The notes under the pieces: generated by a model | Told to the model about the DNA's origin: nothing | Database searches by the model: none | What the model saw: only the letters and a program-made list of their open reading frames with translations | Translations under genes and position numbers: made by a program | Origin: Pseudovibrio sp. Ad37 | GTDB lineage: Bacteria > Pseudomonadota > Alphaproteobacteria > Rhizobiales > Stappiaceae | Reading direction: 5' to 3' | Assembly: GCF_001623075.1 (NCBI RefSeq) | Contig: NZ_LMCF01000083.1 | Coordinates: 1 to 46,629, forward strand | Length of the DNA stretch: 46,629 nucleotides | Shown: piece by piece, positions 23,870 through 44,907 of the stretch | How the letters are laid out: every line of letters starts with the position of its first letter | How positions within the stretch are numbered: the stretch's first letter is position 1

Positions 23870-23923
23870 GCTGCTTATTTGCAGAGCCCAGCTAGCTCTT
23901 CAAAGCAATGCAAATGCATCGCT
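23870..23923 (-). promoter_or_regulatory. Four-copy leader element, copy A
   Basis: Plus-strand reading: GCTG, nine T-rich bases, stem AGAGC with loop CCAGCTA and GCTCT, then hairpin AGCAATGC/GCATCGCT. As RNA (minus strand) the loop UAGCUGG can pair its GCUG with the CAGC that lies nine bases after the stem, giving an H-type pseudoknot. Copies at 32447, 41938 and 44857 keep the spacing exactly while the stems vary together. Confidence 0.6.
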
Positions 23924-24028
23924 AAAGCTACTTACCAATCGGCCCTTAAGGAAAGCAGCTTCAATTGAAAAAAGCATAAACTGCGAAGTCCTTGCAAACA
24001 AGGAGAAAGAAGGTGTTTTGTAATCTTA

Positions 24029-24163
24029 ATGCAACAGTTAGGAGAGCTTAAAGGTCTCGATTTGAACAACTCAAACTTCTCATTTCTTGATTTGTTGAGG
24101 TTTGAGAGCTATATTCTAAAAAGGAAAGGGGAGCTTTCGCCCCCCAGTCCGATCACCAAGTGA
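24029..24163 (+). CDS. Possible 44-aa peptide or small RNA
   Basis: An ATG-initiated frame of 44 codons without a clear ribosome-binding site, ending 11 bases before a plus-strand terminator. Either a small protein or an untranslated small RNA may be encoded. The rest of 23924-24466 shows no gene, only further inverted repeats (CTCAAAC near 24070 with GTTTGAG near 24100). Confidence 0.2.
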   Translation: MQQLGELKGLDLNNSNFSFLDLLRFESYILKRKGELSPPSPITK

Positions 24164-24173
24164 TTTTGAAAAC

Positions 24174-24212
24174 GGCCCGGAACCAGACGTCCAATCTTTT
24201 CCGGGTCTTTTT
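24174..24212 (+). terminator. Plus-strand rho-independent terminator without an assigned gene
   Basis: GGCCCGGAA / TTCCGGGTC stem (9 bp with one G-U) and then TTTTTC. A clean terminator on the plus strand where no gene is annotated implies an unlisted transcript. Confidence 0.65.
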
Positions 24213-24424
24213 CAATTCAAACTTCAGTTCAAATCTCACCTAGCATACCACCTCCTTTACCTAGGCTTTGCTACTGTCGGAGCGCCTAATTCCTCCGATT
24301 GCGCAGATTGGCATGCGCTGCTGCTTCGCAAAGAAGGTGGATTTAGTAATCGTAATTTATGCGGAAGCTTCACACTACCAAAGAACCAAACGTGTGAGCT
24401 GTTACCCACGACTATCTGGATGAA

Positions 24425-24449
24425 AGCCCGGAACCATCTTGATCGGGCT
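24425..24449 (-). terminator. Terminator of the 27.0-24.5 kb operon
   Basis: On the minus strand AGCCCG / CGGGCT with a 13-base loop followed by TTC, about 20 bases after the stop of the 279-aa gene. Confidence 0.5.
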
Positions 24450-24466
24450 GGGCGAAATTGCCCCCC

Positions 24467-25306
24467 TTAGCCAAAACTGGCATCAGAACCGTTCCCACTG
24501 TCATTGCTAGTTCCGGAGTTGCTATTACTACTCGCAACAGCAACTGCGGCAGCTACGGCCAAGAGGTCGCCGCAACCAGAAGTGTTTCGAGTTGATTGTC
24601 TCGACGCACGCGCGGCGCGGTAGGTGCGGCTCCGGCGAACTGCGGATGATTTTTTTTGCGGCCGTTCACTTTGAGACTCTTCGTCCTCATTGCTCGGAAA
24701 AGCATACACCGGTGCCTGCCGTGCAATTCGTACTCTATTCCAATCCCATATGAGCGGAATCTTGCAGGATCTCTCGCGGTCCGCGGTTTGGCTTACCCAC
24801 TCTTGCAACGTACTCGCTTCAATCTCGAAAAGGAGCCCATGAGGCGCTTCTACTGAAGATGGCGCCGCCGCTTTGGAGTGCACTACAGCCGCCAAAACAA
24901 GTTCTCCGTGGGTAGCAACAACTTTTACAAACGAGTGTTTTGTCAATTTCCAGACGTGGTAGATTGTGTCCCGAGAAAGGCCAGAACTACGGACAATACT
25001 TACAACACTATTTGGGCCGATGTGGTAGGTGTCTGCAGGGATATGTACTCCAACCTCAATACTCTGTGTATCAAGCTCAGATACACCTTTGGCACGATAA
25101 CTCCTGAATGGCAGGATCTGCCTCTCAAACTCGACAAGATCACACCCATACTTAGCGCGACGGTTGTAACGCGCCTTATCTTCCCATGCTGCTTTCGACT
25201 TCTGCCTTCTAATATCTCTCTTTATCTCCCATTCTGGCGCATTTTTCATAAGCCAACAGACAAAAATGACTGTGAATGGGAGCGTCACAAAAATCCAATG
25301 TTCCAT
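24467..25306 (-). CDS. Membrane protein with low-complexity tail
   Basis: 279 aa from ATG 25306. One N-terminal membrane segment (about residues 4-21, WIFVTLPFTVIFVCWLM), then a basic coiled stretch (IKRDIRRQKSKAAWEDKARY), a globular middle, a basic linker with SQSERPQKKSSAVRRSRTYR, and a tail with AVAAAVAVASSNSNSGTSN rich in Ser, Asn and Gly. No family recognised. Last gene of a five-gene minus-strand run from 27063. Confidence 0.6.
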   Translation of the reverse strand: MEHWIFVTLPFTVIFVCWLMKNAPEWEIKRDIRRQKSKAAWEDKARYNRRAKYGCDLVEFERQILPFRSYRAKGVSELDTQSIEVGVHIPADTYHIGPNSVVSIVRSSGLSRDTIYHVWKLTKHSFVKVVATHGELVLAAVVHSKAAAPSSVEAPHGLLFEIEASTLQEWVSQTADRERSCKIPLIWDWNRVRIARQAPVYAFPSNEDEESQSERPQKKSSAVRRSRTYRAARASRQSTRNTSGCGDLLAVAAAVAVASSNSNSGTSNDSGNGSDASFG

Positions 25307-25407
25307 CAATCCGTAACTTTCTCTGTCAAAGGAAACAAACAAAAAGCAGCAGGGTCTGAAGCGGTTGACTTCTCTTTACTTCAAAAAACTACTAAGCAAA
25401 CGATCAA

Positions 25408-25764: not shown

Positions 25765-25767
25765 AGC

Positions 25768-27213: not shown

Positions 27214-27236
27214 CATTGCCGAAGTCAATATATTTT

Positions 27237-27259: not shown

Positions 27260-27273
27260 GCGAGGCTGAGGGT

Positions 27274-32293: not shown

Positions 32294-32317
32294 TTGATAT
32301 CAATTTGATATGTCAAA
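32294..32317. promoter_or_regulatory. Twin operators upstream of the XRE repressor
   Basis: TTGATATCAA (perfect) immediately followed by TTTGATATGTCAAA (arms TTTGA/TCAAA). Repeated TTGATAT on both; about 65 bases before the repressor start. The stretch 32318-32446 has only a 31-codon frame of doubtful value. Confidence 0.5.
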
Positions 32318-32446
32318 CTATACGCCGCGCTGACACAGAAAGAACGCGCAATATGTATTATGGAATGTCCAACGATTACCCAGCTGTGGCTGCAATGATT
32401 GCGATACACAATCGGATAAGCTATCGTGCAGTACGAATATTGATTT

Positions 32447-32499
32447 AGTGATGCATTGCATCACTTGGTGAAGTTAGCTGGACTTCGAAAATAAACAGC
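32447..32499 (+). promoter_or_regulatory. Four-copy leader element, copy B
   Basis: In the sense strand: hairpin AGTGATGC ATT GCATCACT, then stem GAAGT with loop TAGCTGG and ACTTC (32470-32486), an A-rich linker GAAAATAAA and CAGC (32496-32499). The loop's GCTG is complementary to CAGC. It is oriented toward the gene at 32573, and is opposite in strand to the other three copies, which also face their own genes. Confidence 0.65.
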
Positions 32500-32515
32500 G
32501 AACTATGTTTTGAAA

Positions 32516-32542
32516 CCCCAGAGGTGCATCGCACCTCTGGGG
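32516..32542 (+). promoter_or_regulatory. Leader stem-loop before the 234-aa gene
   Basis: CCCCAGAGGTGC ATC GCACCTCTGGGG, perfect 12-bp arms, about 30 bases before the start codon. Confidence 0.7.
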
Positions 32543-32551
32543 CGGTGCTCC

Positions 32552-32565
32552 CTCCAAATTTGGAG
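32552..32565 (+). promoter_or_regulatory. Hairpin that covers the ribosome-binding site
   Basis: CTCCAAATTTGGAG: its 3' arm contains the GGAG that lies seven bases before ATG 32573 and its 5' arm the complementary CTCC. Pairing would hide the ribosome site. Confidence 0.55.
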
Positions 32566-32572
32566 TAAGCAT

Positions 32573-33277
32573 ATGATTAACACAGCAGCAATTCGTAGAC
32601 GCCTTGAATTACGCGGATATCCGTGTCTCGGGCTAGAAGCTCCCACAGATAGTTCACATAGCGGCGTGCGGTTCTTTGGATCGATTTCCCTCGAACTCTT
32701 TAGGAGATTGACACTTAGGTTCGTCAGAGAGTCTGACTACGACAACGTAGATCGTGCAGAACTTGAACACTGGTACTCAAATGCCGTTCGTGACATCGGA
32801 GAATCGCCGTTTAAGGTGACCTGCGATTTTTCGTCCACCAACTCAGCCCCATTGGTAGAGACAGCCTTTGACTTGGCGGTACATCGCCAGCATCTAGTCC
32901 TAGATTTTTATCAATGGCTACTGACAGACATAAACAGAACACGGCAGGACATATTTAAGGAATTGTGCAAGGTACTCCAGCCAACCGCAGAACCCCGCCA
33001 GGGTTTACAGTCCCATGTGAAAAATCTTTGGAATCACAGTCAGTGCATTGTTCTTTCGAGCTATAAGAATGGAAAATATGCGTATTTGAAAACCGAGTTT
33101 CCCGGCGTCCGTGACGCAGTAATTGCGGATCGCCTTTTACGATTCATTCTTACTGAGTTGGATGATCCGGAAAACAGCAAGAGCACTGAATGTGCTCGCG
33201 TCCACCTGACCGACTTGATGTTTCACATCGAACGAGTTTCAGGCGATCTGACAGAAACTTTTGCGCAGGTTGCGTAA
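32573..33277 (+). CDS. Hypothetical protein
   Basis: 234 aa from ATG 32573, fixed by GGAG. Mixed alpha/beta, no signal or membrane segment; phrases such as FFGSISLELFRRLTLRFVRE and LDFYQWLLTDINRTRQDIFK. No known family. Its leader combines the four-copy element, the perfect 12-bp stem-loop and an SD-masking hairpin, the most elaborate of the simple leaders, so expression is likely controlled post-transcriptionally. Confidence 0.65.
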   Translation: MINTAAIRRRLELRGYPCLGLEAPTDSSHSGVRFFGSISLELFRRLTLRFVRESDYDNVDRAELEHWYSNAVRDIGESPFKVTCDFSSTNSAPLVETAFDLAVHRQHLVLDFYQWLLTDINRTRQDIFKELCKVLQPTAEPRQGLQSHVKNLWNHSQCIVLSSYKNGKYAYLKTEFPGVRDAVIADRLLRFILTELDDPENSKSTECARVHLTDLMFHIERVSGDLTETFAQVA

Positions 33278-33278
33278 A

Positions 33279-33316
33279 ATGAACAAGGCCAGCAAAATTG
33301 CTGGCCTTGTTCATTG
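33279..33316. terminator. Long hairpin between convergent genes
   Basis: 18-bp arms starting AATGAACAAGGCC and ending GGCCTTGTTCATT around a two-base centre. It lies between the plus gene ending at 33277 and the minus gene ending at 33331; probably a shared terminator although no T-run follows. Confidence 0.7.
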
Positions 33317-33330
33317 GCTAACCACTTCGT

Positions 33331-33855
33331 TCATATAATCCGCCTCCCCACAAGCTCTGCTTGGATCGCTTCTTTAAACCCATTGTCTTCTTCCATTCTG
33401 GCATTTAGTTCCACTAGGTGCTGCCGAAGCTCAGAACGAGACATATCTTTCAGCTCAGGTAGGAAGTCTCCCATATGTATGCTCTCAAGACTTTGCGGCG
33501 AAATCGTTGGTGCGGGGTCGTCGGTGAAAACAACATCCGGGCCTTGCTCTTGAATCAAGTGTTCTAGTTCTTGCGCTATGAAAGCCCCAGCTATCGACAG
33601 CATTTTGATCTGGTTTCCAGGGTTCCAAGAAGCGCCTGTGAAAGGCCAATCGAACATATCAGTCCGATAGAGTGGCGGATTGCCGTTGTATTGATTATCC
33701 TGTTGCATCGAACACATGGTTGAGGCAAGAGCGTAGTTGGCTGCAGCCGAACTCAGTTCGCCGCGTTGGTATTTGTACTCGCCATTTGCCCCCCGCCGTT
33801 CTTCATGGATCTGTCGTTCCTGTTCACTCGCAATCAGTTCGATACCAGTACGCAT
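33331..33855 (-). CDS. Conserved phage/plasmid protein (RTGIELIAxE type)
   Basis: 174 aa from ATG 33855, which has AGGGG seven bases before it. The pattern RTGIELIASEQERQI..., YQRGELSSAAANYA, FDWPFTGASWNP and IAGAFIAQELEHL is that of a widespread phage and plasmid protein family of unknown function. The C-terminal 60 residues with a charged helix are extra. No catalytic residues known. It is upstream of, and divergent from, the Gabija-like pair. Confidence 0.65.
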   Translation of the reverse strand: MRTGIELIASEQERQIHEERRGANGEYKYQRGELSSAAANYALASTMCSMQQDNQYNGNPPLYRTDMFDWPFTGASWNPGNQIKMLSIAGAFIAQELEHLIQEQGPDVVFTDDPAPTISPQSLESIHMGDFLPELKDMSRSELRQHLVELNARMEEDNGFKEAIQAELVGRRII

Positions 33856-34534: not shown

Positions 34535-36364
34535 ATGAGAATTTGCAACCTTTCCATTAAGAATTTTCGGGGGGTAGCCGAAGCTGAACTGGTTTTCCCG
34601 AGCCACACGGTCCTCATTGGTGATAATAATACAGGGAAGTCGACAGTTCTCGAAGCGCTGGATTTAGTGCTAGGACCAGATCGCGCGCATAGGATGCCGC
34701 CAGTCGATGAACACGACTTCTTTCAAGGGAAGTATATTCTAAGTAAGCCAGAGCCAGCAGCTGTAGCTGCGGTCGACACTAATGAAGACCCAATTGGTGA
34801 GGCAGAACAGGTCGAAGAGCCTGCGGAAGGAACCGCGCCGGTTCTTCGGATCGACGCGACAGTCTGTGATCTCTCAGATGAACAGAAAGCTCGTTTTTTT
34901 GCGAATGTCGAATGGTGGGACGATGCCCAAAGTTGTGTCCTAGATCAGCCAACTGCTGGACAGGTAGCAACAGCATCGCCCTGCATTCGTGTCTCGTTTA
35001 TCGGTTGGTATGATACCGAAGATGATGATTTTTCTGGGGAGACGTTTTTCACGAAAACAGATGAGGATGGACAACGGCAACCGTTCCGCAAAAAGGATAA
35101 GCAAACCTGTGGCTTCTTGTACCTTCGAACCCTTCGAACCGGCTCACGGGCGCTTAGTCTAGAACGGGGAAGCCTACTAGACATTATTCTCAGATTGCAG
35201 GAGGCCCGCCCAAAGTTGTGGGAAGACAGTCTCGAGTCTCTTTCGACACTGCAGCTATCTGACGACGCAGAAGGCGGCTTAGGAGAGGTGCTTGAGAGTG
35301 TGAACGCTGCACTCAAGAAGTACGTACCAAAGGAGTGGGGTGCTCAACCTCAGCTCAGAGTATCAAATCTCACTAGAGAGCATCTGCGCAAGATCGTAAC
35401 TGCGTTCATGTCTACTGGTGATGGAGAACATTTGGCTCCGTATTACCGGCAAGGTACAGGCACCATCAATATGCTGGTGTTGGCACTTTTGTCTCAGATC
35501 GCTGCTGGTAAGCAAAATGTAATATTCGCAATGGAAGAGCCAGAGATTGCCATACCTCCATATGCACAAAAACAGATTGTCAACGAAGTTCGCAAGCTCT
35601 CATCGCAAACGATTTTCACCTCTCATTCGCCATATGTAATCGAAGAGTTTAGGGTCAAAGAAACGGTCCCGCTTAGCCGTGATGCGGCAGGTGTATTAAG
35701 ACAACGTGAGATAGTACTTCCTGCTTCGATCAAACCGAAGTTCTACCGTCAGAACTTTCGAACAGTGTTTTGTGAGGGGTTGCTGTCAAGTAGGGTGTTA
35801 CTGGCAGAGGGCGCAACAGAAGCGATTGCGTTTCCAGCGGTGGCGCGAAGGTTGTCTAAACTCAGACCAGCAGATTTCAAAACCCTTGAAAGCATCGGTG
35901 TGTGTACGATTGATGCTGGTTCCGAGAGCAAAATCATTGCAATGGCGGGTTTATATCGCGGCCTTGGAAAAGAGGTTATTTGTACCTGCGATGATCAAGA
36001 CGCAGCGGTGACGACCGACATGAAAGCCGCACTTGACCTTGTACTGATGCATGATGAGAAAGGTTTTGAAAAGATGGTGCTGGCAGGCACTACGGAAGCG
36101 GCCATGGAGCGATACATCGACAGCATTACGTGGCCGCAAGCGCTTCAAGCGCAATTTCCGACTCCTAAAACTGATCTTGCCAATGCGATGCAGGCCTACC
36201 TTTCCAAATACAAAGGAGAGGGGGTCGCGGCAGATTTTTTAGTGCAGTGTGAATTTGAAGAAATCCCTGAGTGGATACGGAATGCCTGTTTAGCAATCCA
36301 ACAACTCTGTGTTGGCGAAGAGGATGATCCTGAGCCACTGGTGCTAGCTGGAGCAGATGCATGA
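34535..36364 (+). CDS. gajA: OLD-family ATPase/TOPRIM nuclease (GajA-like)
   Basis: 609 aa. Residues 29-37 are the ABC-type Walker A (GDNNTGKST) after a standard IKNFRG start. The ATPase continues to EEPEIAIPP (Walker B region, about residue 331) and TSHSPYVIEEF. A TOPRIM nuclease domain follows: LLAEGATEA (catalytic Glu, about 422) and CTCDDQDAA (Asp residues, about 485). This is an OLD-family endonuclease. Overlapping a UvrD-like helicase gene it matches the Gabija phage-defence system (GajA + GajB), also called class 2 OLD. An insertion-rich 90-170 region is not typical. The family name is well supported, the subtype slightly less. Confidence 0.8.
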   Translation: MRICNLSIKNFRGVAEAELVFPSHTVLIGDNNTGKSTVLEALDLVLGPDRAHRMPPVDEHDFFQGKYILSKPEPAAVAAVDTNEDPIGEAEQVEEPAEGTAPVLRIDATVCDLSDEQKARFFANVEWWDDAQSCVLDQPTAGQVATASPCIRVSFIGWYDTEDDDFSGETFFTKTDEDGQRQPFRKKDKQTCGFLYLRTLRTGSRALSLERGSLLDIILRLQEARPKLWEDSLESLSTLQLSDDAEGGLGEVLESVNAALKKYVPKEWGAQPQLRVSNLTREHLRKIVTAFMSTGDGEHLAPYYRQGTGTINMLVLALLSQIAAGKQNVIFAMEEPEIAIPPYAQKQIVNEVRKLSSQTIFTSHSPYVIEEFRVKETVPLSRDAAGVLRQREIVLPASIKPKFYRQNFRTVFCEGLLSSRVLLAEGATEAIAFPAVARRLSKLRPADFKTLESIGVCTIDAGSESKIIAMAGLYRGLGKEVICTCDDQDAAVTTDMKAALDLVLMHDEKGFEKMVLAGTTEAAMERYIDSITWPQALQAQFPTPKTDLANAMQAYLSKYKGEGVAADFLVQCEFEEIPEWIRNACLAIQQLCVGEEDDPEPLVLAGADA

Positions 36365-38175
36365 AGGTAACTGACGAGCAGCGGCGGGCCTTGGATGCAG
36401 AAGGGCATTGTCTGGTGCTAGGTGGGCCAGGTGCTGGCAAGACGACAATCTCAATTATGAAGGCAGCCGCATTTGTTGAGGCAGAGCTAAAGCCTGAGCA
36501 GCATGTGTTGTTCTTGAGTTTCGCGCGGGCGACGGTTTCTCGTGTGAGTGAAGGTATTGCCCGTGATCTTAACGTGCCCAAGGCTGTTTCAAATCGCATT
36601 GAAGTTGATACATACCATTCTTTCTTTTGGCGCATACTTAAGGGGCACGGATACCTTTTAGGCCTGCCACACTCACTAGAACTATTGCTACCGGCTGATG
36701 TTGCTGGTGTCTTGTCTGAACTTCGAACCACCACGGATCAATCCCGTGATGACGGATTGCTTGAGCTCACCGATGAAGAAAAAGCCGTGCTGCAAACTGT
36801 TGCATTCGAAGATGGGAGAATTGGCTTCGATCTGTTTGCGCCATTGTTGGCTGATCTGTTGACCAAATTTCCAACCATTGGCGATCTCGTTGCGAACCGG
36901 TATCCTCTGATTATTTTGGATGAGTTTCAGGATACTAGCGATGAGCAGTGGGAAATCGTTAAGCGATTGGGCAGCAAGTCGCGATGTCTTGCTCTCGCTG
37001 ATCCTGATCAGAGAATCTTCGATTTCATTGCCACCGACCCGGAGCGATCAAACCATTTTATAGACTATTTTGAAGCGGAAGAGATTGATTTAGGTGGACT
37101 CAGTCACCGAAACCTTCATACGGACATAACACTGTTTGGTGATGACATACTTAGAGGGACGTTTTCTCAATTGGCCTATGAAGGGGTAGATTTAGTTGGA
37201 TACCCCCGCATTGAAGCGCAAGCGCATACTAAGCTAATCACCGAAGTTATGCAGGCTCGAAAACGAGCTATGAAGGCAAGCGGCGAAGCGTGGTCTGTAG
37301 CTGTGCTGGTGCCGACCAAGCCACTGACCAAAAAAATTTCTGACTTGTTCACGCAAGGTTTAGGGAAAATGCCACTTATACCGCATACAGCTGTGATCGA
37401 GCGGGATGCTGCTATTTTGTCGGCTCACTGTATCGGGGTTTTGCTTGAGAAACGACCAGTAGCTGATGGTTTCGAGCGCTTTGTTTTACAAGTTGCCAGT
37501 TTCTATCGCGGGCGGAGTGGGAGCAGTCCTGCTAAAGGCCACCTCAAGACGGCTAACAGTTTCGTTGCGGACCTTCAAAAACGTCGCGAGCGGCAAGCCA
37601 TAGGTAAAGATCTGCCTGCAAATTCGAAGATGCGAAAAATGGAGCAGGTTTACAAGGAAGTACTTGCTCTTTCTTTTACTGGTGATCCACAGCAAGACTG
37701 GGTGATGGTGCGTAATGTTTTGGAGAAGGGGTGCTGTGTTCAACTGCGCGACATCGCGGAAGAAGCCCGCAATCTGCGCTTTCTGGATCGCGGAAAGCAG
37801 CTTCGTCTAGTTCTATCGGAAGACTGGGACGGTGCCGCTGCCTACCCAAGCGCGTTTGATTTAACTAAAGAGGCATTTGTACAAGAACATTTTGCCATGG
37901 CAGGGCAGCCTGAGGGTGGTGTGGTCATAATGAACTTGCACAAAGCCAAAGGAAAACAATTTGATGAGACAATCCTGTTTGAAGATATGCCTATCATCGT
38001 GAGAGGCATAGGGATAGTCAGAAATAGTGGAAGATTTGTGCGAGAAAACGAGGCGAATGACAACATTGCTCAGTACCGGAAAAACTTCCGCATGGCTGTG
38101 ACTAGGTCAAAGTATCGGACAACCGTTCTTACGCCAAAACAAGACAAGTGTATTTTGGTTCGCGCTTTGATGTAG
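36361..38175 (+). CDS. gajB: UvrD/Rep-like helicase (GajB-like)
   Basis: 604 aa; ATGA overlap with the OLD gene shows coupling. Helicase motifs: Q-motif TDEQRRAL, Walker A LGGPGAGKTTIS (residues about 18-30), motif Ia LFLSFARATVSRV, Walker B LIILDEFQDTSDEQW (about 185), motif III LADPDQRIF, motif V/VI region MNLHKAKGKQFDETI and RMAVTRSKYRTTVL. It belongs to superfamily 1. In Gabija, GajB senses DNA ends or damage caused by phage and activates killing with the nuclease. Length is within the range for GajB-like proteins. All motifs are intact. Confidence 0.8.
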   Translation: MKVTDEQRRALDAEGHCLVLGGPGAGKTTISIMKAAAFVEAELKPEQHVLFLSFARATVSRVSEGIARDLNVPKAVSNRIEVDTYHSFFWRILKGHGYLLGLPHSLELLLPADVAGVLSELRTTTDQSRDDGLLELTDEEKAVLQTVAFEDGRIGFDLFAPLLADLLTKFPTIGDLVANRYPLIILDEFQDTSDEQWEIVKRLGSKSRCLALADPDQRIFDFIATDPERSNHFIDYFEAEEIDLGGLSHRNLHTDITLFGDDILRGTFSQLAYEGVDLVGYPRIEAQAHTKLITEVMQARKRAMKASGEAWSVAVLVPTKPLTKKISDLFTQGLGKMPLIPHTAVIERDAAILSAHCIGVLLEKRPVADGFERFVLQVASFYRGRSGSSPAKGHLKTANSFVADLQKRRERQAIGKDLPANSKMRKMEQVYKEVLALSFTGDPQQDWVMVRNVLEKGCCVQLRDIAEEARNLRFLDRGKQLRLVLSEDWDGAAAYPSAFDLTKEAFVQEHFAMAGQPEGGVVIMNLHKAKGKQFDETILFEDMPIIVRGIGIVRNSGRFVRENEANDNIAQYRKNFRMAVTRSKYRTTVLTPKQDKCILVRALM

Positions 38176-38475
38176 GAAGCAAAGCGTGATGATTGGGTTA
38201 GGCACCATGTACTCATCAAAAAACTCAAAATGCTTTGCCATTCATGAGCGGTGGCATTCAGTAAATCGATAGGTAGGTTTTAGAAGTGTAGAATGTCCAG
38301 TGAGGGTTGAGCAAGCAACCAGTTCGCTCTTGAGAGTAACAACAAAAGCCTTTGGGTGGCTCTGGTGCAACTCAGTATAGAGACATCTGAATGACCACCT
38401 CTGACCCAAGCGAAATCAATTTTTGAGTGACCCTCGAAGGTGATTTTGAACATCACAACATCAGCCGGGTATGGT
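38176..38475. other. Non-coding gap
   Basis: 300 bases between the helicase gene and a convergent minus-strand gene. No gene, RNA or clear terminator was found; only a short GGTTG...CAACC repeat near 38310. Confidence 0.4.
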
Positions 38476-38856
38476 TTAGTTTTTCGAAAACTGATCTAAA
38501 TAATAGGCGCGTTTGGCCTCGCATATATCCGCCTGCATATCATGTATTACGCCAGGTGAAACATTGGGATTTGAATAAGCAAGTATGGCGGCAGAAATAT
38601 ATTCCTGTCTTTGAATTGAGTTCTCTTTTTGTTGCCAAACTGGTCTGCTGAACTCAATAAGAAATTCTTTCAAAGGATATCCACTATCTCTCGATTTCGC
38701 CGCCTTTTCCGCCGCGTCAGCGGTGTTTCTGCATAAAAGTGAAAACGAAAATGTAGGTTTATTAAACGGCCACATCACGCCATTGTCATCAATCGACAAA
38801 TACAACGCAGCAACTATTGAAGTGAAAACAAACAACCCAGCATAAAAAGATCTCAT
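38476..38856 (-). CDS. Small exported or anchored protein
   Basis: 126 aa from ATG 38856 (MRSFYAGLFVFTSIVAALYL), a signal peptide or single anchor. The rest is polar and helical with two Cys (CRNTADAAEKAAKSRDSGY; DICEAKRAYYLDQF). No family recognised. It is separated from neighbours by non-coding sequence on both sides. Confidence 0.5.
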   Translation of the reverse strand: MRSFYAGLFVFTSIVAALYLSIDDNGVMWPFNKPTFSFSLLCRNTADAAEKAAKSRDSGYPLKEFLIEFSRPVWQQKENSIQRQEYISAAILAYSNPNVSPGVIHDMQADICEAKRAYYLDQFSKN

Positions 38857-39523
38857 ATCGGTGTGCAATAACCTTTCTTAGACAATCAATCGGCTGTTAC
38901 AGGTAACCTGTAGCGACCGAAGCCCAACATGCACTCACTTTGATAATCGTTTGGCCACTAAAGGCGACTATCAAGCTAATACAGACTTGTTTAACACGTC
39001 TATGCAGGAGATATTGTAGTCGCGACCTTTTCCTTCTATTGTTTATACTTCGCCTCCTCAAACATGACTAGCCACTATGGGTTCTGAGAATCATTTGATG
39101 CCCCGCTCATGTGATCGCATCGATCCACAAAAGACTGCTCACCATGGTACTCAGAACATCCCTTCAGCAGACGCCTACAACCCTTGATGGAACTGCTCGA
39201 ATGGCAACTCCTGGCCCTGATTACAAGCTGATTAAGGTCAACCCTAGGTTTGCGTCTGCCTCTGGCTGAGGCTGCTCCGTAACCAGCGAACGGCGGCAAT
39301 GGTCACTGACCGCCATGCTTAGCAAGCAACATATCTTAAACGAAGCTGTACTTAGAGTGATACATTTTTTCCATCCCATAGCGATGTTTGCAAGCCGAGG
39401 TGATTATGATTGCAGGTCGTGACACTTAGAGTGTCATTCCGCCCCCTACTGGAACAGACCTCACATATATGAGATACAGCATGGTCGGAATATTCAACGA
39501 CCAAACCACAGGGCGCGTTGAAA
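38857..39523. other. Non-coding region with small repeats
   Basis: About 670 bases without a supportable gene. It has a perfect hairpin TGACACT TAG AGTGTCA (39420-39436), and the string ACTTAGAGTG appears twice (near 39350 and 39424). It may be a remnant of lost sequence. Confidence 0.35.
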
Positions 39524-39550
39524 CAAAAAAAGGGGGCTCTAGCCCCCCCT
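39524..39550 (-). terminator. Terminator of the 41.9-39.5 kb operon
   Basis: On the minus strand GGGGGC... / GCCCCC stem followed by TTTTTTTG, directly at the end of the 103-aa gene. A strong intrinsic terminator. Confidence 0.85.
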
Positions 39551-39860
39551 ATCTTGTTATAGCAGAAGACGCATAGCCTCCTCCATTTTCTGGTAGCATA
39601 AGCCAAGTGTTATGATGCTCTTGGGCCTCTGCATCCCATTGCTTCGCGAGTTTGTGAGCTTGCTCAGGCTCGTGCACAGCAACAACCAGTATCTCTTGCA
39701 AACTCTGATTGTTGACCTTCTCAAGCCTCAATTGCTTAGACGTTTTGATGATTACGATGATCGCCACAAACAACAAGCCAATGAATATGAAAAACAATAC
39801 GCTTCTCCTGACACTGGAAAATTGAAGTTGGTTTATTTTTTTACGCTGCCAGTGAGGCAC
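39549..39860 (-). CDS. Small membrane protein
   Basis: 103 aa. A basic N-terminus, one membrane segment (about residues 19-38, SVLFFIFIGLLFVAIIVII) and a helical soluble part with HEPEQAHKLAKQWDAEAQEH. It overlaps the end of the preceding gene by 20 bases, so it is translationally coupled. Last gene before a strong terminator. No family recognised. Confidence 0.6.
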   Translation of the reverse strand: MPHWQRKKINQLQFSSVRRSVLFFIFIGLLFVAIIVIIKTSKQLRLEKVNNQSLQEILVVAVHEPEQAHKLAKQWDAEAQEHHNTWLMLPENGGGYASSAITR

Positions 39861-40524
39861 TGTTCGCGCTGAGCTCTCTCATCTCAGATATAGCTTCATG
39901 AAGTACCCCGATTGGCGAAGGCCAATATAATCCGGGTTCTGAAAGTGAACTCTCTTTTTGCACGGCATTGCCGGTCTGCTGATCTCGAATGTCGACAAGA
40001 ATTTGAACAGCGGTATGCCCACTCATGAAATAAGAGATGTGGTCATCCTTCTGCTGATCACTCCATCCGCTAACATCAAAATCACCGGCACACCGGTGCA
40101 TGTGTCCGACCGAGACGATAAATCGTCTGGTACGTTTTCTCTCCACTGCGACCCAGTCTTCCGGAACACGACTCAGCTTCTCCTGCTCGCGTTCAATCAT
40201 TTTCACGACCGAGTTCACGTCACGATCCAGCCAACGAAAGAATGCCTTTAAGATCGCCGTTTCTTTGATTGTTCTGGTTCCACAATTTGGTAGCGAGACC
40301 ACTACGTTAACAGGCCCGTCGCCATCCCTAGTGAAACCGAACAGCCCATTTTTCATCCAGTAATCCTGAGTGTTCAAGATCCAATTTTTAAGGATGTTTT
40401 TGTCTAGTTCGGAAGCTGACCACCGGTCAATGAGCTTTAGTGGTGAGGGCTTCAAACCAGATTCGCTGGAGTAACCCTTCGCGCCCATTTGCTGTGCTGA
40501 GAAATACTGAAAGATATTTTGCAT
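39841..40524 (-). CDS. Hypothetical protein
   Basis: 227 aa from ATG 40524, which has GGAG seven bases upstream; the longer frame to 40584 would run through the leader hairpin. Soluble, rich in Trp and charged residues, with RFIVSVGHMHRCAGDFDVSG and FRWLDRDVNSVVKMIEREQE. No known family. It is part of the run 41866-39549. Confidence 0.6.
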   Translation of the reverse strand: MQNIFQYFSAQQMGAKGYSSESGLKPSPLKLIDRWSASELDKNILKNWILNTQDYWMKNGLFGFTRDGDGPVNVVVSLPNCGTRTIKETAILKAFFRWLDRDVNSVVKMIEREQEKLSRVPEDWVAVERKRTRRFIVSVGHMHRCAGDFDVSGWSDQQKDDHISYFMSGHTAVQILVDIRDQQTGNAVQKESSLSEPGLYWPSPIGVLHEAISEMRELSANSASLAA

Positions 40525-40555
40525 TTTGCTTCTCCAAAAATGAGAGAGCAACGGC

Positions 40556-40589
40556 CCTTCATGAGGGGATGCCGCCACCCTCATGAAGG
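40556..40589 (-). promoter_or_regulatory. Leader stem-loop before the 227-aa gene
   Basis: CCTTCATGAGGG and CCCTCATGAAGG, perfect 12-bp arms with a ten-base loop, 32 bases before the start. Confidence 0.75.
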
Positions 40590-40630
40590 TTGATAAAATT
40601 GAAAAAGACGGTCTCGCCTTTGGAGTTCGC

Positions 40631-41035
40631 CTACGTTTCAGTTCGCTTGGTAAAAAGTAAATCGCCTGAAGCGAGCGTTATCTCTTCCCATTGAAGGGTG
40701 TCATACGGTCCCCAAGGCATGTCTAACGAACATAACATATCCACAGGGTCGGAAAATTCTTTACCATCACCAATTCGATCCGATGGCAAATGACCATAAT
40801 TTTCCAGCTGCTTCATCAAAAACGCATCAAAGTCCTCTTGTTTGGTAAATAGGGGCGTATCCAGCCCATGATCATGATCATGACCAACGACCCACACACT
40901 AGCTTCCAAATCAGGAGAAGTGCTTTTGATTGCTTGAACGCTCGCGCAAGCAGCAGCAGCAGCAAAATCATTTTGCAAAGAGGGTTTGCTGTCTGATCGT
41001 TCAGATGAAGTGATTGAAGGATTGAGTGTTGTCAT
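40631..41035 (-). CDS. Hypothetical protein
   Basis: 134 aa from ATG 41035 (AAAGG upstream); the frame to 41092 crosses the leader hairpin. Acidic, with a His/Asp run (VVGHDHDHGLDTPLF) that could bind a metal, and a C-terminal WGPYDTLQWEEITLASGDLL. No family is recognised. Confidence 0.55.
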   Translation of the reverse strand: MTTLNPSITSSERSDSKPSLQNDFAAAAACASVQAIKSTSPDLEASVWVVGHDHDHGLDTPLFTKQEDFDAFLMKQLENYGHLPSDRIGDGKEFSDPVDMLCSLDMPWGPYDTLQWEEITLASGDLLFTKRTET

Positions 41036-41073
41036 GGTGCGACCTTTCAAGAAAATTGGGCGCACCATCTCCC

Positions 41074-41093
41074 CTTGAGTGCGTGCACCCAAG
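41074..41093 (-). promoter_or_regulatory. Leader stem-loop before the 134-aa gene
   Basis: CTTGAGTGC GT GCACCCAAG, 9-bp arms with one mismatch, about 40 bases before the start. Confidence 0.6.
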
Positions 41094-41167
41094 CGGGATC
41101 TATTTGGAATTAAGTTTGTGATTTTAGGAGCAACAGGCCTAACGGCCAGATGGTTGTGGCCTCAAAC

Positions 41168-41275
41168 TTATTTATAGTGAGAGGCTTCTCTGATCGCACG
41201 AAGTGAAACAAAGATCGCCCATGCAGCAAACAAAATCAGGATAGGTGATGATACAAGAATAAAAGACATATTCAT
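41168..41275 (-). CDS. 35-aa membrane peptide
   Basis: An ATG overlapping the preceding stop (ATGA) opens a 35-codon frame: MNMSFILVSSPILILF, then AAWAIFVSLRAIREASHYK, a single membrane segment with a basic tail. Start/stop coupling and hydrophobic content suggest a real small protein in the operon. Confidence 0.55.
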   Translation of the reverse strand: MNMSFILVSSPILILFAAWAIFVSLRAIREASHYK

Positions 41276-41604
41276 TTCCTAGGCTTTCCTTCTTGTGAAT
41301 GATAACGCTTATTGCGCGTTGCGCGCAACTGCTTTTCAGACCTCATTTTGCTTGCTGCTTCTGTAGTAAAAATACTCGTAACAAACATAATGACTGCCCC
41401 CAGAACGGAGAAGAGTAATGTTGAGACTGGAATAGTCTCTTTGATCGCAACGTTTATGACTCCCCCGACAAAAATACTTATGCCAAGTTTTTCTGAGATC
41501 GATGCAATCTTATCGAGCGATGTTTCACTAGGCCTATAGCCTGAGGCTACACCGAAGAGCTGTAATAGCCTTCGAAGAAACTTGCTACTTCGTTTTATCT
41601 GCAT
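41272..41604 (-). CDS. Two-segment membrane protein
   Basis: 110 aa from ATG 41604, which has AAGGA eight bases upstream; the long frame to 41700 includes the leader hairpin and is rejected. Two membrane segments (GISIFVGGVINVAIKETI and VSTLLFSVLGAVIMFVTSIF) lie between a basic N-terminus and a basic tail (KQLRATRNKRYHSQEGKPRK). No family recognised. Coupled to the 35-aa peptide. Confidence 0.6.
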   Translation of the reverse strand: MQIKRSSKFLRRLLQLFGVASGYRPSETSLDKIASISEKLGISIFVGGVINVAIKETIPVSTLLFSVLGAVIMFVTSIFTTEAASKMRSEKQLRATRNKRYHSQEGKPRK

Positions 41605-41640
41605 GTAATGCATCCTTATTATGCCGGACGCACTTCCCCT

Positions 41641-41660
41641 GCTGGGTGCGTGCACCCAGC
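41641..41660 (-). promoter_or_regulatory. Leader stem-loop before the 110-aa gene
   Basis: GCTGGGTGC GT GCACCCAGC, perfect 9-bp arms, about 37 bases before the start and 27 bases after the stop of the upstream 59-aa gene. Confidence 0.7.
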
Positions 41661-41686
41661 GGGTTGATATGATTTCAGTACCTACT

Positions 41687-41866
41687 TTAAGAGCTCTCAA
41701 TAAGCTCCTGTAGATCCACTTTTACGCAATTGCCTTCTTCGTCGGAAACGTTAAAGACGTTTGCTGAGCTGCCTGGTCTTCGCATGATGTTCCATGCTTC
41801 TTGAGCAGCTTCTTCGGGAGTCGCAGCTTCCACGTCGATTTCCCATGTCAATGTGTAATGGTTCAT
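41687..41866 (-). CDS. Small conserved-type protein (59 aa)
   Basis: 59 aa beginning MNHYTLTWEIDVEAATPEEA and ending VDLQELIESS, with MRRPGSSANVFNV between. This recalls a short protein common on alphaproteobacterial replicons, but the function is unknown. AAGGAC lies upstream of the ATG. It is first of the run to 39549, and the four-copy element copy C lies about 70 bases before it. Confidence 0.6.
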   Translation of the reverse strand: MNHYTLTWEIDVEAATPEEAAQEAWNIMRRPGSSANVFNVSDEEGNCVKVDLQELIESS

Positions 41867-41937
41867 ATTGAACTAGTCCTTTGGTGCGCCAGATAGTCCA
41901 GCGGCCCTAAGAGGCTCATGATATTTTGATTGAAAAT

Positions 41938-41999
41938 GCTGTTTATTTTCGAAGTCCAGCTAACTTCACCAAGCGATGCAACGCACCACTAAATCGCTT
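41938..41999 (-). promoter_or_regulatory. Four-copy leader element, copy C
   Basis: Plus-strand reading: GCTG, nine T-rich bases, GAAGT-CCAGCTA-ACTTC (41951-41967), then AAGCGA ... TCGCTT. It is nearly identical to copy B, with the same 13-base offset between GCTG and the stem. It faces the 59-aa gene. Confidence 0.65.
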
Positions 42000-42037
42000 C
42001 ATCAATGCTTTTTGAGCATAGAAAAAGAGACGAGGGG

Positions 42038-42064
42038 GACAGGCGCACAAAGTGCGCGCCTGTC
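42038..42064 (-). terminator. Terminator of the primase operon
   Basis: GACAGGCGC / GCGCCTGTC perfect 9-bp stem overlapping the stop of the 119-aa gene; on the minus strand a CT-rich stretch and TTTTTC follow. Confidence 0.55.
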
Positions 42065-42422
42065 AGTTTCCAAGTTCAACGATTTCGTCAATTTGATCGT
42101 ATCGCCGCCCAGCCCAGGCAATTAAGTCCTGATAGACACTTTCATCCAAGCTATGATCTGAATAGATCTCTCGAATGATGTCGCTATCAACCTGGAGCCA
42201 GAGTGCGAACGCTTTGGCAGGGTTGAAATTTGCCCTCTCAAAGATTTTAAGCAAGACGAAATTGTCAGTGCCTGTAATCACGTCCAACTCTCCAGCATCA
42301 TCAAAAGTCAGTTTGTCTTTCTGGAGCAAAGCAAGCCAAGCTTTTGCGACTTTGGGGAGATTGAGTGGAGCATGAGGAAACGCTTTTCGTATCCTCACGA
42401 TAATTACGTCTCTCGTGATCAT
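42063..42422 (-). CDS. Hypothetical protein downstream of the primase
   Basis: 119 aa; ATGA overlap with the primase stop shows coupling. Soluble, mostly helical (VAKAWLALLQKDKLTFDDAG, FERANFNPAKAFALWLQVDS). It may be a partner of the primase. No family recognised. Confidence 0.55.
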   Translation of the reverse strand: MITRDVIIVRIRKAFPHAPLNLPKVAKAWLALLQKDKLTFDDAGELDVITGTDNFVLLKIFERANFNPAKAFALWLQVDSDIIREIYSDHSLDESVYQDLIAWAGRRYDQIDEIVELGN

Positions 42423-43540
42423 GCATAGGCCTCCATATCTGGAGACCTGTGTGCATTGAGATACCGCCAGAGGTGCTCACCACTCGGAAAACCTTGAGAT
42501 CCCTGCTGTTGCCAAACTTGGTTCCAGTCGAGTCCCTTGGTTCCCTGAGGAATGGTCCCTTTCGGTTTGATGATAAAGGCAGAAAGCCCTTCAAGTTTCA
42601 GTCGTTGGCACAACTCTAATGCAGCCGAGTCACCGACGCCGAGAATGTCCTTGTCACACCAGATCAGCACCGTATGGACGCTTTCTGGTGGTTTGAACCT
42701 CTTCAGCATGTTTGCGGTCACTGCTGACCAGCAATTAAGACCCGTTGCACAGTAAACCGCACCGGCATTTTCAAAGCCTTCAGCAACGCTTAGAACGCCT
42801 TGAATTGGCGTTCCATATCGAATTGCAGAACCGGCAATCGAAAATCTTTCTGGTATCTTCATCATCAACCGCGGATTTTCGACACCCGCTTTCTGGCCAT
42901 CACTTGTCAGATAAGTTCGGTGAAGATTTACGATATCACCTTGCTTATTTCGAATAGCCAGAAACTTGGCAGGAAAATACTGCCCGCTCGGATGCTTGAA
43001 GCGTCTAACAAAACGCACATCATCACAAGGCCCGTGAAGTAGCTTACTCAGGCCTCTGGACTGCCAATATTTTCGCAAAGGCTCCGCTGACTGGTGCCCA
43101 ACGCTAACGCCGAGACCCCAGAAATAGTCGAGCTTTCTCCGGTAATCAGCAATGCTTTTGTTGTTGGGCTTTGGAGCCTGTTTTGTCACAGGTGTTGCTT
43201 TAAACGCTCTGCTATTGGAGGTCGGATGCTTCCTACCGTCCACTGCCGACGCACCAATTAAAGCTCCAACTTCATTTACTGTTTTCGAGAAGTCCCATTT
43301 ATTGACTTCCATCAGCAACTTAAACTTGGAAAAACACCCGCATGTATTGCAGATAGCAGCACCGCTGTCGTCAAAACGTGGGAACAGCCGGAAACCGTCT
43401 GTGCCACCATGTATTGGACACGGAACATGCCTGTGATTTGCATCTAAGGCTGGCTGGAGATCAGGAGCCAGGTCACTTGCAATCTGCCCCCATTTGCCTG
43501 CAGCTTTCTCTTGAACAACCTTCGCGTCATAAGAAACCAT
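42419..43540 (-). CDS. DNA primase-like protein (zinc finger + TOPRIM)
   Basis: 373 aa; AAGGAGG lies seven bases before the ATG. Residues about 41-67 give a zinc-ribbon with Cys41, His44, Cys64, Cys67 (CPIHGGTDGF... AICNTCG). A TOPRIM domain follows, with the Glu in SVAEGFENA (about 250) and DxD in WCDKDILG (about 295). Similar to small phage/plasmid primases of the TraC/P4 type, which prime replication of transferred single-stranded DNA. It follows the degenerate paralogue in a shared operon, with a leader containing mutually exclusive structures. Confidence 0.75.
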   Translation of the reverse strand: MVSYDAKVVQEKAAGKWGQIASDLAPDLQPALDANHRHVPCPIHGGTDGFRLFPRFDDSGAAICNTCGCFSKFKLLMEVNKWDFSKTVNEVGALIGASAVDGRKHPTSNSRAFKATPVTKQAPKPNNKSIADYRRKLDYFWGLGVSVGHQSAEPLRKYWQSRGLSKLLHGPCDDVRFVRRFKHPSGQYFPAKFLAIRNKQGDIVNLHRTYLTSDGQKAGVENPRLMMKIPERFSIAGSAIRYGTPIQGVLSVAEGFENAGAVYCATGLNCWSAVTANMLKRFKPPESVHTVLIWCDKDILGVGDSAALELCQRLKLEGLSAFIIKPKGTIPQGTKGLDWNQVWQQQGSQGFPSGEHLWRYLNAHRSPDMEAYA

Positions 43541-43547
43541 CGTACTA

Positions 43548-43660
43548 CCTCCTTGGCTAAAGCGAGATTTCGTTCAAATCCAGACAACTGGATTTCAACG
43601 AAACCCCGCTGGAGAAGAAAAAAATGCCAAGGAGGCCCCAACCGGGAGTCTCCCCGGCAT
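43548..43660 (-). promoter_or_regulatory. Attenuator-like leader of the primase gene
   Basis: On the minus strand, in order: CCGGG/CCCGG small stem; a terminator stem ATGCCGGGGAG with CTCCTTGGCAT followed by TTTTTTT; a long hairpin (AAATCCAG TTGT CTGGATTT core plus a 14-bp lower stem, 43561-43610); and the ribosome site GCCAAGGAGG (43557-43548). The string CCTCCTTGGC (43635-43626) lies within the terminator and is perfectly complementary to the ribosome site, so these pairings exclude each other. Confidence 0.65.
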
Positions 43661-43722
43661 GGGTTAATGTTCAGCGCTTTCGCGCTTTTAAGGTTGATTG
43701 GCCAAAGCCAAATCAATCAGTT

Positions 43723-44763
43723 TCAAGAGGCCTTTATGCTGTGAGTAACAGATAGGGCTCTGGCGGTCGTAGGGAACGCACTGGCGCCTTCCGTCTGCCA
43801 CATGTCAAACCATGATAGCTCTGGTTCTCCCACCTTTAGGTCTCTTGTTGGAGTTAACAATCCGCAAGCTCTTCCCTGCCCTTGTAAAACATCAATGAAA
43901 TGCTCATCATCAGGGGTCGGGGTATCCTTGCTACGTTTGTTTGCCCAAAGAACAACAGTCGAAACATGTTTTGGAAGAGTGACCCCTTTCCAGTCGCCTG
44001 AGATACTCACCCAAGTAGGGATCCCAGTTGCTTCGAATATTGCCATTGCGCTTAAAACGTCCTTAGCCAGGAACAAAATGCCATTGTCAGGAAAACCCAA
44101 ACGTACCGGCGTTGTGTTGGCTAAAGTGGATCGCTTATCGGAACTGAAGCGCTTTATCTCACCCGATAATATCCCCTCGGATGAAATCGGAATGCGATAG
44201 TGAGCCGCAAGTTCTCCATTTGAGTTTCGACTACCACAGACAATGCTATGAGTAGCCCTTCGAAAGGAAAAAAGGTTCTTCCTGCCAGGAACAAACCAAA
44301 TGTCACTTCTCTCCAAATCAAGTATACGGGTCAGCCCGTTTTGGAGCAGAAACTTATGGGCAGGTCTTGCGTTTTCCTCGCTACACCTAATCCAGTTACT
44401 TCTGATCGACCGCTCAGCTTTTGGGGCTTGAACGACTTTGTTCTCGTCTGTTTTGATCACCTGCTTAACAGCAAAAGGGACAACACCAGTGAGTTGCTCT
44501 GCAGTTAAATGTTCTGGAGCATGTAGAAGCTCACCGATCAAGTTGACTACTTCCGCTTTGGGTTTCTTCAGGTCCCAACTAAGCAGTGCAAAACCATTAT
44601 CGAAACGCGCACCATTAACTGACGCACTTCCATTGTTTTTATTGATCCGCTTGAGTATCGCTGGATCAATAGATGGTTTCATTTTTTGAACAATGTCTTG
44701 CCATTTGCCTCTAGCGATAAACAACAAGATATTTTCATCATATTTTGAAGATGGATTTGTCAT
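43723..44763 (-). CDS. Degenerate primase paralogue
   Basis: 346 aa. It aligns in outline with the 373-aa primase: WQDIVQKMKPSIDPAI at the start, a middle with IRCSEENARPAHKFLLQ, then LFLAKDVLSAMAIFEATG where the TOPRIM Glu should be, LWANKRSKD where DxD should be, and SWFDMWQTEGASAFP. The zinc cysteines are absent, the TOPRIM Glu is Lys and the Asp pair is lost, so it cannot be catalytic in the known way. A structural or decoy partner is possible. GAGGAG lies before the ATG. Confidence 0.65.
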   Translation of the reverse strand: MTNPSSKYDENILLFIARGKWQDIVQKMKPSIDPAILKRINKNNGSASVNGARFDNGFALLSWDLKKPKAEVVNLIGELLHAPEHLTAEQLTGVVPFAVKQVIKTDENKVVQAPKAERSIRSNWIRCSEENARPAHKFLLQNGLTRILDLERSDIWFVPGRKNLFSFRRATHSIVCGSRNSNGELAAHYRIPISSEGILSGEIKRFSSDKRSTLANTTPVRLGFPDNGILFLAKDVLSAMAIFEATGIPTWVSISGDWKGVTLPKHVSTVVLWANKRSKDTPTPDDEHFIDVLQGQGRACGLLTPTRDLKVGEPELSWFDMWQTEGASAFPTTARALSVTHSIKAS

Positions 44764-44770
44764 TAGGATT

Positions 44771-44823
44771 ACTCCTCAATTAAAAAACCAAGGAGTCCCC
44801 CTGCGGGAGATCTCCCGGCAGGG
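44771..44823 (-). promoter_or_regulatory. Leader of the degenerate primase gene
   Basis: Minus strand: stem CCCTGC-GGGAG / CTCCC-GCAGGG (44823-44799, one bulge), then ACTCCTTGG (44796-44788), TTTTTT, and the ribosome site GAGGAGT (44777-44771). ACTCCTT can pair with GAGGAGT (one G-U). Same order of parts as the 43.6 kb leader. Confidence 0.6.
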
Positions 44824-44856
44824 TATTGATATGTGTTTGCGCAAATGCGCTTCATT

Positions 44857-44907
44857 GCTGCTTATTTACAAAGCTCAGCTAGCTTTTCTATGCGATGCAA
44901 CAGCATC
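44857..44907 (-). promoter_or_regulatory. Four-copy leader element, copy D
   Basis: Plus-strand reading: GCTG, nine T-rich bases, AAAGC-TCAGCTA-GCTTT (44870-44886), then GATGC AACA GCATC (44894-44907). A third hairpin GCGC AAAT GCGC lies just before it. Faces the degenerate primase gene. Confidence 0.65.

Follow-up and report, generated by a model that had tools for sequence, protein, structure and literature searches.

A stretch of 46,629 nucleotides (nt) of Pseudovibrio sp. Ad37 (contig NZ_LMCF01000083.1; the window hereafter) raises the question of why one small, foldable sequence recurs in front of several of its genes. The window contains repABC-type genes and an F-type TraF/TraH/TraG set. 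An earlier note on this DNA described four copies of the element and proposed a structured RNA, with a single-stranded DNA promoter or a DNA operator as alternatives. We conclude that the element is probably a cis-acting translational leader RNA of conjugative elements, and give this reading, drawn from sequence comparison, a probability of roughly 0.68. The value was lowered from 0.70 because no promoter could be identified for the window's own copies.

The copies in the window

The element consists of a variable hairpin A, a 5-base-pair (bp) stem 1 with the loop UAGCUGG, a 9-nt A-rich linker and CAGC. In relatives, CAGC is usually followed on its 3' side by a GC-rich hairpin C, then by hairpin D, which hides the Shine-Dalgarno (SD) sequence, and then by AUG. 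The copies and the open reading frames (ORFs, lengths in amino acids, aa) behind them are as follows.

23870-23923, minus strand: copy 1, from base-by-base reading and covariance-model matches
23904-23923, minus strand: hairpin A of copy 1, AGCGATGC ATTT GCATTGCT
23895-23899 with 23883-23887, minus strand: stem 1 of copy 1, with loop TAGCTGG at 23888-23894
23874-23882, minus strand: linker of copy 1, followed by CAGC at 23870-23873
23821-23840, minus strand: hairpin C of copy 1, TTCTGGGTGTCTACCCAGAA, from sequence and fold
23463-23786, minus strand: first ORF after copy 1, 107 aa, with a DUF5983 domain
32447-32499, plus strand: copy 2, with hairpin A at 32447-32465
32470-32474 with 32482-32486, plus strand: stem 1 of copy 2, with loop TAGCTGG at 32475-32481
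32487-32495, plus strand: linker of copy 2, followed by CAGC at 32496-32499
32516-32542, plus strand: hairpin C of copy 2, a GC-rich 12-bp stem, from the fold
32545-32572, plus strand: hairpin D of copy 2, with the SD sequence (GGAG) in its 3' arm, directly before the ATG at 32573, from the fold
32573-33277 (within 32510-33277), plus strand: ORF after copy 2, 234 aa, without a family above cut-off
41938-41990, minus strand: copy 3, with hairpin A at 41972-41990
41963-41967 with 41951-41955, minus strand: stem 1 of copy 3, with loop TAGCTGG at 41956-41962
41942-41950, minus strand: linker of copy 3, followed by CAGC at 41938-41941
41687-41866, minus strand: ORF after copy 3, 59 aa; a similar ORF follows a copy in locus L032
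44857-44910, minus strand: copy 4, with hairpin A at 44891-44910
44882-44886 with 44870-44874, minus strand: stem 1 of copy 4, with loop TAGCTGA at 44875-44881
44861-44869, minus strand: linker of copy 4, followed by CAGC at 44857-44860
44799-44823, minus strand: hairpin C of copy 4, CCCTGC/GCAGGG, by eye
44766-44798, minus strand: hairpin D of copy 4, GGACTCC...GGAGTAATCC, around the SD sequence before the ATG at 44763, by eye
43723-44763, minus strand: ORF after copy 4, 346 aa, in the same single-linkage blastp group as the 42419-43540 protein

Base-by-base reading bore out the copies that the earlier note had placed at 23870, 32447, 41938 and 44857, with all the parts it named. A layout search requiring five of five stem pairs found these four against a mean of 0.0 in 100 block-dinucleotide shuffles, with a pattern that was designed after the copies were known. 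The stems are changed on both sides together, as had been claimed (AGAGC/GCTCT, GAAGT/ACTTC twice, AAAGC/GCTTT). The complementarity of GCUG and CAGC and their constant distance also hold, the linker being 9 nt and CAGC constant in all four. The strand of copy 2 is opposite to that of copies 1, 3 and 4.

Three further copies lie in the Ad37 genome outside the window, two on contig C103 and one on contig C146. The covariance-model search that the note had suggested yielded matches in related genomes. A model built from these seven copies found no others in the Ad37 genome at E-values (E) up to 1. Over the seven, 98.3% of cells pair, and 10 cells are changed on both sides compared with 3.5 in shuffles.

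Stem 1 and the predicted pseudoknot

Stem 1 covaries well beyond the window. In 70 diverse copies (67 distinct; set A3), which were chosen for at least 4/5 pairs and are biased towards stem 1 by that choice, both-side changes occur at all five pairs, and the covariation is 0.476, compared with 0.116 in shuffled and at most 0.106 in slid controls. Chance-looking sites (L044, L082, L097, L100 and L175) and, by judgement, L046, L091, L103 and L126 were removed from this set. A second set of 93 model hits (55 distinct; A6), whose genomes partly overlap those of A3 and whose model itself leans to structure, gave 0.481, with shuffled controls at 0.111 and slid ones at no more than 0.167. As in riboswitches, the leader is conserved and structured, with covariation.

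A second predicted helix, S2, would join GCTG of the loop to CAGC, and this pair of sequences is found in 171 of the 177 distinct copies, most of which were first detected with the S2 sequence fixed or weighted. The six variants comprise one double change (ACTG/CAGT, in Nitrosomonas halophila), three G-U pairs and two breaks; pairing is kept in four of them. The linker is 9 nt long in 162 copies, 8 in eight and 10 in seven (n = 177). In the pattern-selected set of copies its letters are mostly NNAAAYAAR, as would suit an A-rich third loop alongside stem 1. An H-type pseudoknot is likely to form, to judge from these features. The earlier proposal of such a fold agrees with them in detail, and it rests mainly on invariant complementarity (6 variants of 177).

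The near-invariant loop and tail, set against a stem 1 of free sequence, suggest recognition by something specific. No family match in Rfam 15 overlaps any copy, either in the window (E up to 5), in 18 related loci (gathering thresholds) or in 25.5 kb of an IncC plasmid (E up to 5). The matches obtained at permissive thresholds in the window and the IncC stretch are weak and all lie off the copies.

Predicted folding of the sense strand

Wobble pairs distinguish the two strands of hairpin A. A hairpin finder that scored G-U and A-C alike identified 61 hairpins among 86 nonredundant copies, after exclusion of 11 weak model hits. On the sense strand, taken in this test to be marked by the downstream genes, there are 65 G-U and 10 A-C pairs (binomial p=2e-6), compared with expectations of 62:38 from arm composition and 126:78 from mononucleotide shuffles. 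The p-value is optimistic because the copies are related; the direction is clear. A less strict earlier count gave 74 G-U and 9 A-C. An excess of G-U over A-C on the sense strand is not expected of a duplex site or of a folded template strand. By computation, it is the sense strand that folds.

The ribosome-binding site downstream

Each window copy sits 71-93 nt upstream of a start codon. Among 125 nonidentical copies, 110 are followed within about 300 nt by an ORF with an SD-like site, at a median of 86.5 nt from CAGC. Six weak model hits each were excluded beforehand from this downstream-ORF set and from the 177-copy set (five common to both); L139 7263 was excluded from the former only and L306 16123 from the latter only. 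A hairpin C stem of at least 7 bp is present in 59% of 118 nonredundant copies, compared with 7% in mononucleotide shuffles. Hairpin D is often an inverted repeat just before the start, with the SD sequence in its 3' arm.

The SD sequence is computed to be sequestered. In 90 nonredundant leaders with starts 55-135 nt after CAGC, its mean unpaired probability is 0.22, compared with 0.38 in 900 shuffles of the upstream part and 0.46 in 124 further genes from these loci (p near 1e-13 and 1e-12, respectively). Within the window, hairpin D is clear at copies 2 and 4 only.

The first genes after the copies include those for AAA/CbbQ-type ATPases, DUF3150 proteins and DUF5983 proteins, and others whose products were judged by eye to be single-strand binding, RadC-like or primase-like. 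Many copies in relatives are intercistronic. For example, an internal IncC copy (20050-20087) lies between exo, which ends at 19963, and a DUF3150 gene, which starts at 20163.

Upstream of several internal IncC copies lie a GC-rich hairpin and a long, imperfect one (CTTTCC...GGAAAG, with other versions; in locus L201, for instance, at about 19964-20045), and much of the intergenic region there looks folded. A long hairpin, Z, stands ahead of some internal copies; it reaches at least 8 bp in 42% of the copies, compared with 10% in shuffles (n=118). It was kept out of the core element because it was not seen, by eye, at most first copies.

Transcription start

The first copy of a cluster points away from a conserved neighbour gene and is often preceded by a promoter-like sequence. 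A -10-like hexamer with at least 4/6 matches lies within 32 bases before hairpin A in 19 of 21 first copies, and ends 8-13 nt before it in 16. With a control, 16 of the 20 readable first copies have such a hexamer at 8-13 nt (at least 4/6), 11 of them at 5/6 or better; windows further upstream contain one in 6.2% of cases at 4/6 or better and in 0 of 160 at 5/6 or better. The 8-13 nt range was set after the first promoter tabulation, and one of the 21 first copies was unreadable. The position of the hexamer implies that the transcript of the first unit would start within a few bases of hairpin A. Among the other copies, some of which are also first copies, 34 of 162 have a -10-like hexamer, compared with 4.8% in the control.

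Loci L247 and L249 contain TTGACA, a 16-nt spacer and TAGAAT. Between the acaB-like gene and the first copy, upstream of the promoter, a conserved AAAAGCRC..CCAAAAYGC.CTGTTT is visible by eye in L247, L249, L252, L246 and L310. This motif may be an activator site.

In IncA/C plasmids, bet and exo are transcribed from the AcaCD-dependent promoter Pvcrx087, and AcaCD/SetCD drive bet/exo transcription, according to one report (PMC4542580). In another (PMC11493245), vcrx087 appears to follow acaB, and it is therefore probably the gene behind the first IncC copy.

Carriers and linkage to acaB

A survey pattern with the loop, A-rich linker and CAGC fixed and the stem left free was run on genome contigs (at least 117 stretches matched) and viral contigs (49 stretches). 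Among the matches listed, the stem has at least 4/5 pairs in 111 of 202 sites, which include own-genome loci more than once, and 5/5 in 47 of these. The stem 1 sequences are diverse (GAAGG/CCTTC, AGCGG/CCGCT, TACGT/ACGTC, CCTCG/CGAGG and others). In all, 177 distinct copies were gathered, on conjugative plasmids and islands resembling integrative and conjugative elements (ICEs). The carriers, again among the matches listed, include a Providencia NDM plasmid and contigs of Vibrio, Shewanella, Photorhabdus, Edwardsiella, Comamonas, Alcanivorax, Marinomonas, Nitrosomonas, Sulfuritalea, Tepidiphilus and Accumulibacter.

A 161-base segment that includes the copy of the Providencia NDM plasmid matches 863 of 72,556 PLSDB records, at 3,889 places. 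The three plasmid records that were opened are all conjugative, MOBH and MPF_F, and two are typed IncC. A Vibrio cholerae IncC stretch (40 kb) carries seven copies, and a stretch of V. harveyi p345-185 (12 kb) four. The element is found in 2 of 87 genomes of the window's family (model R1, E 0.01), in 1 of 289 genomes of its class, Ad37 itself (model R2, E 0.001), and in 3 of 398 sampled genomes of its phylum at the model threshold. In the family of genome G355, it is present in 24 of 249 genomes (E 0.001), clustered, with 1-11 copies per genome. To judge from contigs identical with those of Sulfuritalea and Tepidiphilus, this family is probably betaproteobacterial. The element is spread over alpha-, beta- and gammaproteobacteria. 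Within the 23 tabulated clusters all 116 copies agree in strand; the mixed-strand exceptions are the window (one plus, three minus) and a contig of the related genome G025, from the same genus (one plus, one minus).

Several candidates were set aside. The scan of the 49 viral stretches gave no convincing copy, and viral sites L165, L173 and L175 (4/5 pairs) were rejected by eye for missing context. Hits in metagenome-assembled genomes labelled Planctomycetes, Bryobacterales, Anaerolineaceae, Hydrogenedentes and similar were not taken as host range, as binning may be wrong. A loose first pattern gave 40 forward and 33 reverse sites in the Ad37 genome against 15 and 17 for the backwards pattern, and was too unspecific alone.

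The neighbour of the first copy is AcaB-like. A divergently encoded protein of 204-243 aa occurs in 9 of 11 clusters by blastp. The IncC gene at this position matches the solved AcaB over all 213 residues (6n8b, E 1.1e-135), with letters alike throughout the printed alignment. The IncC match brings the neighbour to 10 of 11 clusters; the eleventh is a partial Vibrio stretch. The member from the Sulfuritalea contig matches 6n8b on its own (E 2.7e-34). Pfam AcaB matches are weak, with one above cut-off.

In the G355 family (249 genomes), the element (E 0.001) occurs in 24 genomes and a strong AcaB-like match (E <1e-57) in 20; 19 have both (Fisher p 6e-23). The twentieth, G799, has a copy next to both of its AcaB-like genes (E 9e-6), and all 20 genomes with a strong AcaB match thus carry the element. 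Five further genomes show only weak AcaB-like matches (E 5e-13 to 2e-11), with the element not found, and five others have a single copy without a strong AcaB-like match. The acaB-like gene lies 162-212 nt from the element in 19 measured loci. In the Ad37 genome, an AcaB-like gene on contig C103 adjoins a copy, and the order there is IncC-like: AcaB-like, copy, AAA ATPase, Bet, Exo, copy, DUF3150-like, CobT-like. AcaB and AcaDC raise one another's expression, as stated in PMC9927553.

Proposed mechanism and alternatives

As a translational leader, the sense RNA would fold into hairpin A, an H-type pseudoknot, usually hairpin C, and finally hairpin D, which would pair with the SD sequence. The pseudoknot would be built of the 5-bp stem 1 of free sequence, the loop UA-GCUG-G, the S2 helix GCUG/CAGC and the A-rich 9-nt loop along stem 1. 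Hairpin A and the pseudoknot would form the receptor and hairpin D the closed ribosome site, with the pseudoknot as the sensing or recruiting part that controls the opening of hairpin D. In the first unit of the relatives' clusters, the transcript would probably begin a few bases from hairpin A, at a promoter divergent from the acaB-like gene. With later copies placed between genes of one block, every gene there would have a closed ribosome site of its own. The establishment genes (ssb, bet, exo, CobS/CobT-like, methylases, radC-like, primase-like) could then be translated together on cue. We infer the pseudoknot itself, the switch and a ligand, which might be a host or element-coded protein, or a small molecule.

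Several observations weigh against this reading. Two of the six S2 variants break the pairing, and the near-constancy of the S2 helix means that covariation cannot prove the pseudoknot. All four window copies lack a -10-like hexamer at the expected place. Scanning 32300-45100 for promoters gave five sites against 14.1 expected in shuffles; no site lies just upstream of copies 2-4, and one weak match (41945-41918, minus strand) begins inside the linker of copy 3. The earlier statement that each copy heads a transcription unit holds for the start codon downstream and finds no promoter to match it. For 15 of the 125 nonidentical copies no downstream start was detected, copies 1 and 3 of the window have no clear SD-hiding hairpin (copy 3 by eye), and no ligand came to light. 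Folding energies of the two strands were uninformative; this comparison was discarded, since the skew of an upstream control was no smaller. The structured RNA of the earlier note gains from the wobbles, the stem covariation, the SD-hiding hairpin and the promoter-like hexamers of relatives, and lacks a promoter at the window copies.

The element could instead be a processive antitermination or RNA-stability element, which keeps a long transfer/establishment operon transcribed or intact, with hairpin D as a separate translational feature. Copies recur within a long gene block, on one strand in 23 clusters (116 copies), and IncC bet/exo, which lie in this block, are transcribed from an AcaCD promoter (PMC4542580). 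Against this, most copies lie at a narrow distance from the start codon and the SD sequence is hidden more than in controls, neither of which would be needed, and no Rfam family match was found in the window, the 18 loci or the 25.5 kb of IncC. We consider this explanation unlikely.

A folded ribosome-recruiting (standby/S1) site, which would only aid translation of a structured start region without regulation, is similarly improbable. The near-invariant UAGCUGG and CAGC exceed the needs of a generic unstructured site, although an A-rich stretch upstream of a closed SD sequence and an occurrence across alpha-, beta- and gammaproteobacteria would suit it.

A single-stranded DNA promoter of the Frpo/ssi type, acting on the transferred strand just after entry, was one alternative of the earlier note, and we now hold it to be very unlikely. 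Establishment-type genes, several copies and one strand in most relatives fit this idea as set out in PMC11541004, as does the weak promoter match beginning inside copy 3. However, G-T pairs of a folded transferred strand would read as A-C on the sense strand, where the 65:10 ratio is the opposite; the first-copy hexamers lie before the element; and window copy 2 has the opposite orientation. The conserved letters (TAGCTGG, AAAYAAR-CAGC) are without -35/-10 hexamers, in a comparison that did not scan all copies.

The note's other alternative, a double-stranded DNA operator for AcaB or another regulator, has very little probability left: AcaB is a solved transcription regulator (PDB 6n8b) whose divergent gene lies 162-212 nt from the first copy in 19 loci, but a compensatory free stem, strand-specific wobbles, and a fixed loop and linker with fixed spacing of the single-stranded parts are unexpected of a duplex site, and internal copies have no adjoining acaB.

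Likeness to known systems

No description of the leader turned up in the searches made of the open-licence literature. PreQ1-I and SAM-II are small pseudoknot riboswitches, and the predicted leader is like them in its putative H-type pseudoknot, short stem 1, A-rich third loop and position upstream of a sequestered SD sequence. It differs from them in having no Rfam match in the stretches searched, in its conjugative establishment genes and in its several copies per mobile element. The T4 gene 32 mRNA has a pseudoknot and is autoregulated by a single-strand binding protein. The likeness here is a predicted 5' mRNA pseudoknot together with ssb-like genes (by eye) that follow some copies; an annotated ssb lies in the IncC block. 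In contrast to gene 32, the element has its SD sequence within a hairpin and occurs ahead of many unrelated genes.

PMC4542580 describes, for SXT, a "strong translational attenuator" ahead of bet, and places it in IncA/C plasmids too. It resembles the element in SD-type control and in the gene block, whereas the IncC stretch has no pseudoknot copy between ssb and bet. Frpo/ssi promoters (PMC11541004) are likewise repeated folded sites upstream of leading-region genes. The element differs in that it folds on the sense strand and that the first-copy hexamers precede it; by the 65:10 count, its folded strand is not the transferred template strand. The element looks like a new leader-RNA class, which would work like the small pseudoknot leaders.

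Other features of the window

The DUF5983 gene and its leader (23463-23834) are closely duplicated on contig C146 of the same genome (L022 13815-14189). The protein encoded at 42419-43540 (minus strand) has primase zinc, DUF7146 and Toprim domains and adjoins the 43723-44763 protein; the blastp group of the proteins at 42419-44763 has members in 7 of 11 element clusters. A Gabija-type defence pair at 34535-38175 (plus strand; GajA, E 3e-241; GajB, E 1e-192) lies some 1.3 kb downstream of the gene behind copy 2, separated from it by two ORFs on the opposite strand. Near repC, at 12602-13039, there are three 87-nt direct repeats at 175-176 nt spacing with TTTTTACAGCTGTAAAAA palindromes, which are possibly plasmid replication or partition sites. 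Three near-palindromes, TTTCCANATATATNTGGAAA, at 2165-2332, with spacings of 73 and 71 nt, look like operator or partition sites.

Significance

IncC plasmids are important carriers of multidrug resistance for which genome-wide transcription data have been published. For IncA/C and SXT elements, 5'-RACE/RNA-seq reads are in print (PMC4207636, PMC4344509). A more specific and tentative version of the leader reading, which we regard as possible at considerably less than even odds, is an RNA switch specific to AcaB-type conjugative elements, that is, IncC, Vibrio plasmids, beta- and gammaproteobacterial ICE-like islands and the Pseudovibrio plasmid. Such a switch might read a signal of entry or transfer, such as AcaB, unbound single-strand binding protein or a metabolite of the host, and open the ribosome sites of establishment and recombination genes at once. 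If the leader reading is true, ssb and the recombination, methylase and primase-like genes would share a leader and, through it, a second layer of control over establishment and transfer, exerted on translation, beside the transcriptional control by AcaCD/AcaB.

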